A DNA stretch of 64,000 bases, from positions 1-64,000 of the forward strand of contig CAIQQB010000018.1 of assembly GCA_903873805.1 (NCBI GenBank), in the 5' to 3' direction. This DNA is from an uncultured Opitutia bacterium. GTDB taxonomy: Bacteria > Verrucomicrobiota > Verrucomicrobiia > Opitutales > Opitutaceae. The first letter of the stretch is position 1, and every line of letters begins with the position of its first letter. Position numbers and translations under genes: made by a program. The notes beneath the pieces are model-generated. The model was not told the DNA's origin. It saw only the letters and a program-made list of their open reading frames with translations, and did no database searches. Of the stretch, positions 34,373-58,196 are shown piece after piece.

Positions 34373-34741
34373 ATGTCTCCCGCCCTCCCAAACACCAACC
34401 GCATCCGCGCCTTCACCCTCGTTGAAATCATGATCGTGGTCGTCATCATCGGCCTGCTTGCCGCCATGGCCATTCCGGCGTTCCAAAAGGTCCGCTCCAG
34501 TTCACAGGACAAGACGGTGCTCAACAATCTCCGGCAGCTCAGCACCGGGGCCGACCAGTATTACCTTGAGATGGGGGTCAGTTCCGTCGCCACCACCGAC
34601 CTGATGGGGAGTAACTCCTCCCAATACGTGAAGACGTTCCCGACCGTCGCCAACGAGACCTACACGGCGGTGTTGCAGCAGGGAGTGGCCATCACAGCCA
34701 GTGGTGTCGCCGGCGCCCGCACCATCACTTACAGCCCCTAG
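34373..34741 (+). CDS. type IV pilin / GspG-like pseudopilin
   Basis: 122 residues. The short basic leader ends in RAFTLVEIMIVVVIIGLLAA, the class III signal recognised by prepilin peptidase; cleavage would fall between A and F, followed by the conserved Glu at mature position 5. After the helix comes FQKVRSSSQDKTVLNNLRQL and a short globular domain ending ARTITYSP. Small pseudopilins of this kind are abundant in Verrucomicrobia. Its body is closely matched by an internal segment of the lipoprotein at 51054-52979. No secretion or pilus assembly genes are nearby. Confidence 0.88.
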   Translation: MSPALPNTNRIRAFTLVEIMIVVVIIGLLAAMAIPAFQKVRSSSQDKTVLNNLRQLSTGADQYYLEMGVSSVATTDLMGSNSSQYVKTFPTVANETYTAVLQQGVAITASGVAGARTITYSP

Positions 34742-50032: not shown

Positions 50033-50875
50033 TCAACCCTTCCGGCGCGACCAGACCAGCAGAAGAACACCACCCGCGGCGAGCAGGGGCAGGATGCCGG
50101 GCTCCGGCACGGCCTGGAACTGCCCTCCCTCGACCAGCCAGGCCGCCGAATTCAGCGCCAGAATGCCGTTGGAATTGATGGAGGGTGAAAACGGATTCAC
50201 GCCGTAGCTGGAGATCATGTCCACATCGCTGAAGACCAGCAGCGCTCCCGCCCCGAGGGCGAAGGTGCCGCGGGGCCAGTACACGATGGTCACCTGCCCC
50301 GAAGTGTTTCTGCCGGCAACAATGCCGCCCAGCGCGACGATGGTCGCCTCGTCAAACTGCGCAAAGTTACCGTACGTGCCGGTGTTGGTCGCCGTGCCAA
50401 ACGGGCCGTTGAAGAACGGCGCGTAGCCGTTGGAAACCGTGCCGTCGGCCGGTGACTGGACAAGGCCCAGCGCGGCGCCGATGGCGTTGTGCGAGGTGTC
50501 GTCCTCCAGCAGCCAGAGGTCCATGCCGCTCCGGAAGGCGCTGACGACGGCGGACACGTTGGGCGTGCTCTGGGCGTTGTCCCACCAGGCCGACATGAAA
50601 CCGTTCAGCCCCGTGAGATTGTCCGGTGCGGCGGCGGACAGATCGGTGATGGAGATGGTCGTGCCGACGGTGCCGCCCGACCCGAAGTTGGCGGGGTTGG
50701 TGATCGCCGCGCGAAAGCCGCTCAAGTAGGCGGACGAAAGCGACCAGGCCTCATTGTCCAGGGTGGCGTCGGGACTGCCGAGCACGTAGGTCTGCGCCCG
50801 AGCGACCGGGGACGCGAACGCCACAGCCCCGATGAGGCCGAGCAGCTTAAGACCAGAGGGCACGGTAAGTTTCAC
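50033..50875 (-). CDS. PEP-CTERM sorting-signal protein
   Basis: About 280 residues from GTG 50875 (alternative GTG 50863). Signal peptide (LKLLGLIGAVAFASPVARAQ), a secreted domain of unknown fold, and the C-terminal tripartite sorting signal AVPEPGILPLLAAGGVLLLV followed by WSRRKG: VPEP motif, hydrophobic helix, basic end. Exosortase cleaves such tails and the protein is released or anchored at the envelope, usually together with exopolysaccharide. The exosortase at 60.6-62.3 kb is a candidate processing enzyme. No catalytic motif is recognised in the body. Confidence 0.85.
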   Translation of the reverse strand: MKLTVPSGLKLLGLIGAVAFASPVARAQTYVLGSPDATLDNEAWSLSSAYLSGFRAAITNPANFGSGGTVGTTISITDLSAAAPDNLTGLNGFMSAWWDNAQSTPNVSAVVSAFRSGMDLWLLEDDTSHNAIGAALGLVQSPADGTVSNGYAPFFNGPFGTATNTGTYGNFAQFDEATIVALGGIVAGRNTSGQVTIVYWPRGTFALGAGALLVFSDVDMISSYGVNPFSPSINSNGILALNSAAWLVEGGQFQAVPEPGILPLLAAGGVLLLVWSRRKG

Positions 50876-51053
50876 AGCGGGAGGATGGCCGGCCAGACTG
50901 GCGACCACCGCCTGCCATGCAAGCACCCTTCGCGCCAATTGCGGCTGCGGCAGGAGCGATTGACCGGCCGGTCGCGAAGCTGCGGCCGGCCACCCTTTCA
51001 CCATCCCTTGGAGGGCCAGACCCTTAACCGAGGAGCCGGCCCCGGGTCGCGCA

Positions 51054-52979
51054 TCAGGGCGACGGTAGCGCCTTTGCGACGGTGGCCTGGAGCGTTTTCA
51101 GCCGGGCCACCAGATCGGCCGCCGTCGCCTTTGCGGCGGTCGTCTCGCCACCACGGGCGCCGACGTTCTCGACCCGCTGAATGGTGGCATCGAGGGCCGT
51201 ATGCAGCGCGAGAATCTGTGCCGGTGTCGGATTCGCGCCCAGCGCGGTAGCCGCACTGGCCAGCCGGTTCAGGTCGGTCCGGACCACCGGGTGGGCGTTG
51301 ATATACGTGGTGGAGGAACTGCGGATTACCTGCACCTCGGCCAGGACCTCGGCGGAGACCGGACGGGACGGCTTTTCCGGTGCGGAAGCGGATGGGCCCT
51401 CGTCGTCACCGTAGGAAATCGTGCGGCCGTCGGGGGTCGTGACCTTCAGGGCCAGTCCCTGCCTGAATCTCAGGTGGGAGTAGTCCTCGCCGGTGACCGA
51501 TGGGATGCTATGGATATATTTCTCCTTTTCCGGTCCGACGAGCTGGGCGTAGGTGACGGTGTCGACCCCGTGCTCCAAATAATACTGGTCCGCCGCGGTC
51601 GATAGCATGCGGAGATTGTTGGTGATCGCCTTGTCCTGCGAGGAGGCGCGGACCTTCTCAAACGCCGGGATGGCCATCGCGGCCAGGATGCCAACGGTGA
51701 TGGGGTTATAGATCGAGATCATCGCGACTTCCTGTTTGAGCGAGCGGAAGGAATGAGAGCGGATGAGGATGCCATCCGGGAGGTTTGCGCTCACGGAGAC
51801 AACCGGATCCTTGAGGTCGGGCAGCTGGCGCGTGATCGCGCCCAACACCTGGGTGATCTCCGGAACGGCCTTGGGATTGAGGCTGGAAAGCTGCTTGAGC
51901 CGAGTGACAAACTGCGGACTGACGTAGCTGAGGCTGTTGCCCTCGGGGCCGACGGCCGCGAGCGCCTTCTGGAACGCGGGATCCTGATCCAGCCCCGCCT
52001 TGCGGTCGTGGCACTCGGTGAGAAACTCCTTGGTCGTCGCCAGGTAAAGGGTGCCGCCCTCGACGGCGAGCACCGGCCGCAGTCCCTCGACGGGCAGTTC
52101 GGTCTTGAGCGCATAGATCTTGAGCGTGCCGACGGTGGAGGATTCCAGCATCGGGAGCTTGTCGAGCGTGCCGGTGAGCGGAGCCCCGATGCCGTCAATG
52201 CGGATGAGCAGCGAGATTTGCGGCAGCACCAGCGGACTCTGCGGCGGGAAAGGCAGCGTGAAGGTGTTCTTGTCATCAAGCTTGCCGAGCACGACCAGCC
52301 GGCCCTTGAGACTGTCGATGATCTGCTGCCCGGTGATGCCGGCATCGCCGGCGGGAATCTTCAGAGCGGCCTCCATGGCGTTGACCGCGGTGGTGCCGCC
52401 GATCTGCGCCACGACCTCCTTCACGGCCGCGTAGATGACCGGAAGGTCAAACTCACCCTCGCTGTAAAAGTCGGCATCCGCCGGAGCGAGCTGGGGAAAT
52501 TTGAACGGGCCCGCCGTGCCGCCGAAACCGGCGAGAAAACCGTGGCGGCCGTCGGGAGTGTAGAGGAAAATGCGGTTGCGGAAGCCGCCCGCCGCGTCGG
52601 GCACGGAACTGAGGCCGAGGGCCTTCACATCGGTGAAGCCGAGCGTGGTGCCGATCTTGCCAAAGTCCTGCTGGAGAAAAACCCCCGCCGCCGGCGGCAG
52701 GTTCGGAATGCTGGTCAGGGTCGTGCGGAGACTGTTGGCGAGCTTGAGCACGTCGCCGTCGATGTCGACATAGCCGTACATCGTGCCGCCGAGCTCGAGC
52801 TGGCGGTTGACCGCGTCAAAATGCTTGCTCCGTTCGGCGGCCGACACGAGCGGGGCGGTGGCGGGGAACTTCGCGGTGGAGTCGGCGGCCGGGGGGGATT
52901 TTTCACAGGCGGCCAGCGCCAGCAGCAGCGCGGCGAGAACGGAACCGACGAGGGGCAGCAGCACGGTCTTGGTTTTCAT
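51054..52979 (-). CDS. lipoprotein with internal pseudopilin-like segment
   Basis: 641 residues from ATG 52979. Signal peptide with lipobox LLALAACEKSPP (cysteine near 25). Residues about 40-415 form a large periplasmic domain of unknown function (GGTMYGYVDIDGDVLKLANS; LKGRLVVLGKLDDKNTF). At residue 420 begins MISIYNPITVGILAAMAIPA, then FEKVRASSQDKAITNNLRML, STAADQYYLEHGVDTV and GRTISYGDDEG. This is the helix plus body of a pseudopilin, closely matching the gene at 34373-34741 but without the GFTLVE cleavage motif. A helical 100-residue tail follows. The internal hydrophobic helix could act as a second membrane anchor. Function unknown. Confidence 0.8.
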   Translation of the reverse strand: MKTKTVLLPLVGSVLAALLLALAACEKSPPAADSTAKFPATAPLVSAAERSKHFDAVNRQLELGGTMYGYVDIDGDVLKLANSLRTTLTSIPNLPPAAGVFLQQDFGKIGTTLGFTDVKALGLSSVPDAAGGFRNRIFLYTPDGRHGFLAGFGGTAGPFKFPQLAPADADFYSEGEFDLPVIYAAVKEVVAQIGGTTAVNAMEAALKIPAGDAGITGQQIIDSLKGRLVVLGKLDDKNTFTLPFPPQSPLVLPQISLLIRIDGIGAPLTGTLDKLPMLESSTVGTLKIYALKTELPVEGLRPVLAVEGGTLYLATTKEFLTECHDRKAGLDQDPAFQKALAAVGPEGNSLSYVSPQFVTRLKQLSSLNPKAVPEITQVLGAITRQLPDLKDPVVSVSANLPDGILIRSHSFRSLKQEVAMISIYNPITVGILAAMAIPAFEKVRASSQDKAITNNLRMLSTAADQYYLEHGVDTVTYAQLVGPEKEKYIHSIPSVTGEDYSHLRFRQGLALKVTTPDGRTISYGDDEGPSASAPEKPSRPVSAEVLAEVQVIRSSSTTYINAHPVVRTDLNRLASAATALGANPTPAQILALHTALDATIQRVENVGARGGETTAAKATAADLVARLKTLQATVAKALPSP

Positions 52980-57425: not shown

Positions 57426-58196
57426 TCAGTTCGTGGGTGCCGGCGCCGGAGTGGCGGCCTGTTTCTTGGCCGTCTGCTGCTGGGCGAAGTCCTGCGCCAT
57501 GGCCTGGATTTTCGGCATCGCCGCCATGATGCGGGGCATCATCAGCTCGGACATTTTCTGCTGCACCACGGGCTGCTTGTCCGCCGTGGCCTGTCCGGCC
57601 GCCGTGCTGTAGAAATCGGCCTGGGCCTGCAGTTCCTCCTTGGTGAAAACATCGCTGTAAATCTTGGCGACGTCCGCCTGCATCGAATCGGGCTGCATCT
57701 CGGCAAACATCACATCCACGATTTTGGCTTGAAAGGCCGCAATATCATCAGCCGACGCCCCCATGTCGCCCATCTGCGCGGTCATCTGTTTCATCATGGC
57801 GGGGATGCTCTTTTTCTGCTGCTCGAGGATCCGGCTCATCATCTGGCTGAAGTTCATCTTGCGCAACACGTCCTCGGCATCGGCGAGGGTCGCCTTCGTG
57901 TCGGACGTGGCGGCGATGACACTGGACGCCAGCTTGATCGCCTCCTCGCGCCCGCCCTTGGTGATCACCAGACTTTCATCCGCCTGCCGGTAGTCGGTGA
58001 CTTTCCAACCGTCAAAGGTCTCCCCAATGCCGACCCAAGCCGTGCCGCCCGCGGCCGAGGCCAGGGCGAAATGGCGATCGGTGCCCGCCATCAGCATGCC
58101 GCGTAATTCCGGGACGGAGCTGGTGACGGTGTCGGCCGCCAAGGCGAGCGACGCGGTGAAGGTGAACAGGGCCAGATAGGAACGGAGGGTGCGCAT
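57426..58196 (-). CDS. DUF2059-like exported protein
   Basis: 256 residues from ATG 58196; signal peptide RTLRSYLALFTFTASLALA. N-terminal third resembles a small beta domain (GTAWVGIGETFDGWKVTDYR). The C-terminal two-thirds is the helical DUF2059 pattern: AEDVLRKMNFSQMMSRILEQ, then VAKIYSDVFTKEELQAQADF and YSTAAGQATADKQPVVQQKM. DUF2059 has no known activity. A longer in-frame region upstream lacks features of a protein. Transcribed alone, convergent with the SHD1 pair. Confidence 0.8.
   Translation of the reverse strand: MRTLRSYLALFTFTASLALAADTVTSSVPELRGMLMAGTDRHFALASAAGGTAWVGIGETFDGWKVTDYRQADESLVITKGGREEAIKLASSVIAATSDTKATLADAEDVLRKMNFSQMMSRILEQQKKSIPAMMKQMTAQMGDMGASADDIAAFQAKIVDVMFAEMQPDSMQADVAKIYSDVFTKEELQAQADFYSTAAGQATADKQPVVQQKMSELMMPRIMAAMPKIQAMAQDFAQQQTAKKQAATPAPAPTN

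Follow-up and report, generated by a model that had tools for sequence, protein, structure and literature searches.

An exported protein, predicted to be a lipoprotein and encoded in a 64,000-nucleotide stretch of DNA from an uncultured Opitutia bacterium (the window), carries a helix and head of the kind found in the pseudopilins of its own genome, placed after a large domain related to DUF3352 and lacking the prepilin signal. What defines a pilin is an N-terminal signal together with a helix that starts the mature protein, and a pilin module that is C-terminal, has no such signal and belongs to the pseudopilin class of its own lineage departs from that definition. Exported DUF3352-related proteins with a pilin module of the lineage's type, which recur in Verrucomicrobiota, suggest a so far undescribed partner of pilus-like secretion fibres. 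They are a candidate for a new partner of the large pseudopilin repertoires of this phylum, and they offer an initial clue to what a DUF3352-related family may do.

A predicted lipoprotein contains a pilin-type helix and head

The gene occupies positions 51054–52979 of the window on the minus strand (ATG at 52979, stop codon at 51054–51056) and encodes 641 residues, with orthologs supporting its overall composition. A signal peptide and lipobox (residues 1–25; 52905–52979) end in Cys25, which is invariant in an alignment of the window protein with its 12 nearest full-length relatives. Thereafter follow, on the same strand, an N-terminal domain (residues 46–424; 51708–52844), a pilin-type helix (residues 426–470; 51570–51704), a pilin head (residues 471–523; 51411–51569) and a C-terminal helical domain (residues 539–641; 51057–51365), the last of which is absent from most orthologs and common to L002, a paralog in the same genome. 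The signal peptide, lipobox and invariant cysteine are those of a bacterial lipoprotein, and lipidation is predicted on this basis. An earlier note on this DNA had called the protein a lipoprotein, which agrees with the lipobox and Cys25 of the window protein but does not extend to the family as a whole, where a lipobox-like motif is found in 52 of 120 members (duplicates counted). Scans of the window lipoprotein against Pfam, NCBIfam and PHROGs returned no family beyond weak pilin matches.

A separate pilin with an FTLVE motif, encoded in the same genome at 34373–34741 of the window on the plus strand, served as the comparison sequence. By BLASTP, residues 430–523 of the lipoprotein match residues 27–120 of this pilin with 53% identity over 95 columns (E 2e-30), which bears out the claim of the earlier note that the lipoprotein carries a pilin helix and body. 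The note had the two sequences aligning along the whole length of the pilin; this holds for pilin residues 27–120 and fails for the first 26 residues, FTLVE included, which have no counterpart in the lipoprotein. As had also been proposed, the prepilin-peptidase motif is lost: a Pfam scan placed the separate pilin above the cut-off of the N_methyl family (PF07963) and gave no match for the lipoprotein, which in the alignment reads ISIYNPITV ahead of GILAAMAIPAF where the pilin has FTLVE. With this stretch in place of FTLVE the cleavage site and Glu5 are gone, so that normal processing is not expected. At the position aligned with Glu5, neither the window protein nor its nearest relatives have an acidic residue, and the equivalent of Pro22 and an AAMAIPAF(E/Q)KVR core are retained in the lipoprotein. 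When the segment was searched against its own genome it matched a small family of pilins, with which it has in common a two-residue loop insertion.

The structure ranking and the sequence match together establish firmly that the segment is a pilin-type domain. Built from the window protein and 12 relatives, a 13-sequence profile found solved type IV pilins at the helix, among them 8tj2, Myxococcus PilA (E 4e-5), rather than pointing to some non-pilin fold. In an AlphaFold model of the full protein, residues 426–470 form one helix that is followed by short strands, with pLDDT below 50 for residues 417–444; a model of the segment alone has a mean pLDDT of 76.1. The long alpha1 helix and small beta-containing head of pilins are present in the models. 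VIA-align of the segment-alone model placed type IV pilins or minor pilins in rows 1–10 (Z 6.4 to 4.2; best row 6xxd, Z 6.4, rmsd 4.6, 100 aligned) ahead of the first unrelated row at Z 3.7, Z values that are modest and that derive from a model whose underlying alignment includes the window pilin as one row. Neither the full-protein model nor the segment model had a Foldseek match in the PDB at or below E 0.001. Two further structural comparisons were rejected: VIA-align of the whole model, which was dominated by the C-terminal helix bundle and unspecific (Z up to 12.1), and a match of residues 160–424 to the Treponema lipoprotein TP0453 (Z 7.5, rmsd 5.1, 182 aligned), which lies within chance arrangements.

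The architecture recurs in Opitutales

A scan of a collection of other public genomes yielded 13 loci, mostly labelled Opitutaceae. The order N-domain, pilin-type helix, body is found in all 13, and the lipobox cysteine aligns in 12, the thirteenth (L054) being split between two reading frames. Whole-genome searches recovered the architecture from many further genomes, and it is conserved across numerous genera; the two sets of loci overlap, the contigs of L054 and L043 having been met in these searches too. The joining of two genes by an assembly error, a possibility raised in the earlier note, is rejected by these 13 loci, which show the same architecture in independent assemblies. Several of the loci adjoin a gene for a WecG-family glycosyltransferase (confirmed by Pfam for L044, L047 and the window), and further neighbours conserved among several loci were recognised by eye.

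In an order-wide search the N-domain was found in 66 of 373 genomes. A recognised pilin body is present in 47 of the 83 distinct Opitutales members and absent from 36, and most of these body-less members still have a hydrophobic stretch in the corresponding position, frequently together with an acidic tail. The paralog L002 is body-less; it is 54% identical to the window protein over the N-domain and has TPR repeats.

Relatives with other pilin modules are found elsewhere in Verrucomicrobiota

The Pfam scan of the window protein gave no match to PF11832 (DUF3352). Four of the distant N-domain family members that were scanned do pass this profile (38.3, 40.0, 28.1 and 28.2 bits; cut-off 26.8) and, since they were found with a profile of the N-domain, the N-domain of the window protein is probably related to DUF3352 by transitive homology. 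We found no paper naming the family in the open-access literature. Across the phylum, the N-domain was detected at E 1e-5 or better in 74 of the 289 genomes drawn. All 20 of the C-terminal tails read outside Opitutales look pilin-derived, 7 by an HMM of the Opitutales body and the rest by eye and by similarity to pilins. The distant tails are of other pseudopilin classes, namely one with CINNLRQIDSAKEQWAL and three cysteines, one that is GspG-like, and one of the DUF1559/H-X9-DG type, whose PF07596 cut-off is passed by the C-terminus of L188. A module of the DUF1559/H-X9-DG kind (PF07596) belongs to relatives from other classes within the phylum and not to the window protein.

The class of the fused module agrees with that of the lineage's pseudopilins

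For each of 17 fusions the nearest standalone pseudopilin belongs to the fusion's own class (and for 10 of them lies in its own genome), as compared with a mean of 5.0 under permutation and with 0 of 2000 permutations reaching 17, a result that is not specific for co-adaptation because the pilins were fetched in a biased manner and class tracks phylogeny. Specifically, classes were assigned by hand, genome by genome, and for the distant genomes most pilins were retrieved by querying with fusion heads, few being added by a counter-search with the Opitutales pilin. Pseudopilin class follows phylogeny, and the class-match test cannot tell co-adaptation apart from shared descent or the capture of an available pilin.

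Within Opitutales, own-genome pilins rank 1, 4, 5, 5 and 2 of 29 for the five fusion genomes compared, and in the window's genome own pilins come first of the 29 genomes (247 versus 225 for the next). A tree of 128 bodies puts the lipoprotein bodies of Opitutaceae in a group of their own, away from the pilins that the same genomes encode, and the support for this fork is moderate (82/80, from few columns). Gene conversion at the level of the genome is not supported as a general rule in Opitutales, as own pilins are not consistently nearest and the tree separates the bodies. A local and partial exchange of the head in the window's genome is possible, given that own pilins are nearest there and that the loop insertion is common to both. 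It is very improbable, and already largely refuted, that the whole similarity stems from a recent local event between the window pilin and the lipoprotein, be it a fusion, a gene conversion or an assembly artefact: this explanation would account for the ranking of own pilins and the loop insertion, but independent assemblies show the same architecture amid conserved neighbours, and the tree separates the bodies it would have to join.

The pilin head probably lies in the periplasm

The maximal 19-residue hydropathy of the fused segment (0.87–2.22 in 54 members with a body) does not overlap that of 56 pilins (2.77–3.08). Three or more cysteines are found in 9 of the 11 fused heads of the cysteine class and none in the other two. 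For the ortholog pair L049/L051, dN/dS was 0.13 for the N-domain, 0.265 for the head and 0.034 for the helix, this last value, a sign of strong purifying selection, being based on 33 codons with saturated dS. That a helix which would not be processed is kept this strictly suggests that it has a partner.

Since the helix is less hydrophobic than those of pilins and the cysteines are usually kept, we place the head in the periplasm, which, taken with the N-terminal export signal, appears to be the simplest reading of these sequences. Were the helix instead a true transmembrane anchor with a single pass, the DUF3352-related domain would be periplasmic and the pilin head cytoplasmic. The hydropathy of the segment is borderline for a membrane helix, and body-less members also have a hydrophobic segment at this place, which would fit such an arrangement. 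We think it improbable, however, because the hydropathy is far below that of pilins, cysteines are retained in the heads of one class, and the charge asymmetry around the segment is small.

A possible partner of the cell's own pseudopili

The picture that we favour, tentatively and as something a little short of an even call, is that the window protein acts as an accessory subunit, packing against the pseudopilins of its lineage from the periplasm. The protein would be exported by the Sec route and probably lipid-anchored, its helix would not span the inner membrane, leaving the head in the periplasm, and the conserved helix core would pack against the pseudopilins of the same cell. Through this contact the module would link the DUF3352 domain with the pseudopilus, acting as an adaptor, cap or terminator. 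A helix that lacks Glu5 and bears a large domain on its N-terminal side is unlikely to be built into mid-fibre and would fit better at a fibre end, the site that we favour. The genome holds pilin machinery (one prepilin peptidase, 11 T2SSE-family matches and 19 N_methyl matches), and the cell's own pseudopilins are the best candidate for the partner. The role of anchor, cap or docking partner suggested in the earlier note is made likelier, though not shown, by the class match. A broader form of the proposal, which we regard as unlikely on present evidence, is that such proteins constitute phylum-wide "inverted modular pilins", Sec-exported and DUF3352-related, in which an unprocessed C-terminal module caps, terminates or docks the cell's own pseudopilus from the periplasm and changes with the pseudopilin class.

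Several observations count against a role at the pseudopilus. In the loci that we read, the lipoprotein gene has no secretion or pilus gene beside it; the body is missing from 36 of 83 Opitutales members; own-genome pilins are not consistently nearest in Opitutales; and the body also occurs on unrelated proteins. The last of these leads to an alternative that we take seriously while rather doubting it, namely domain shuffling without any role in a pilus, by which abundant pilin heads were captured repeatedly as a periplasmic domain or stalk, and the class match reflects only which pilins were at hand. The body, mostly lacking the pilin helix, is carried by ECF sigma factors and M48 peptidases as well as by small secreted proteins and one small lipoprotein, tandem copies of it occur, and genomes of the phylum can hold more than 100 similar pseudopilins, all of which such shuffling would explain. 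It sits less easily with the DUF3352-related proteins, which keep the helix core as well as the head and keep it strongly conserved, and in which the fusion is old and widespread.

Comparison with known pilin-like systems

Modular type IV pilins such as PilB of Streptococcus sanguinis are described as having a class III signal and pilin module at the N-terminus and a grafted domain at the C-terminus, and the survey of modular pilins searched for an N-terminal IPR012902 (PMC8179133). Like these modular pilins (PMC8179133), the window protein unites a pilin module with an unrelated bulky domain; unlike them, it has the parts in reversed order, lacks the signal and Glu5, and has a Sec-type signal peptide. 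With the order reversed and the signal and Glu5 lacking, proteins of the window type are DUF3352-related proteins with a pilin-derived module, and we do not class them as pilins. GspK, a large minor pseudopilin of type II secretion, has been proposed to lie at the pseudopilus tip (PMC8179133), and tip complexes are described as capped by a subunit without Glu5 (PMC10191384). Compared by description, GspK and the window protein are both large and combine a pilin part with a bulky additional domain; in GspK, a processed pseudopilin, that domain interrupts the head, whereas the window protein has it ahead of the helix and lacks a prepilin signal. An Opitutales isolate is described as having 67 homologous PulG-like pseudopilins, an indication of the size such repertoires can reach (PMC13274419). 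In the portion of the open-access literature covered, we found no published account of a C-terminal pilin module on a lipoprotein.

Pilin bodies and neighbouring domains on other proteins

Pilin bodies were also seen in other settings. Two to four occur in tandem in each of several proteins (L021:393-2678, L050:5752-8061, L022, L090 and L097), the first body alone keeping a pilin-like helix. In L031, L032, L034, L035 and L037, ECF sigma-factor-like proteins end in a helix-less body that comes behind a predicted membrane segment (sigma domains Pfam-confirmed in L031 only), and a pilin-type helix and head end M48 peptidase-like proteins at L036:1715-3028 and L030:1486-2805 (PF01435 confirmed for L036). 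Directly downstream of a full fusion gene, L088:2077-2418 encodes a small lipoprotein (LSGC lipobox) with little beyond the pilin body, and in the window's genome (contig C136) L013:347-1117 encodes two adjoining short membrane-anchored pilin bodies without FTLVE.

The C-terminal helical domain of the window protein (51057–51365) is found in the body-less paralog L002 and also in a small secreted protein (L012:8237-9019), and the end of a kinase adjoining L002 resembles it by eye. Next to the lipoprotein gene, at 50036–51004 of the window (minus strand), is a gene with a probable PEP-CTERM motif (18.6 bits versus the Pfam cut-off of 20.7). At 57429–58196 of the window (minus strand) is a small domain like the start of a DUF2059 protein (PF09832), and a domain of this kind, recognised by eye, is joined to pilin bodies in L006, L009, L010 and L033, which come from the same genome and one relative.
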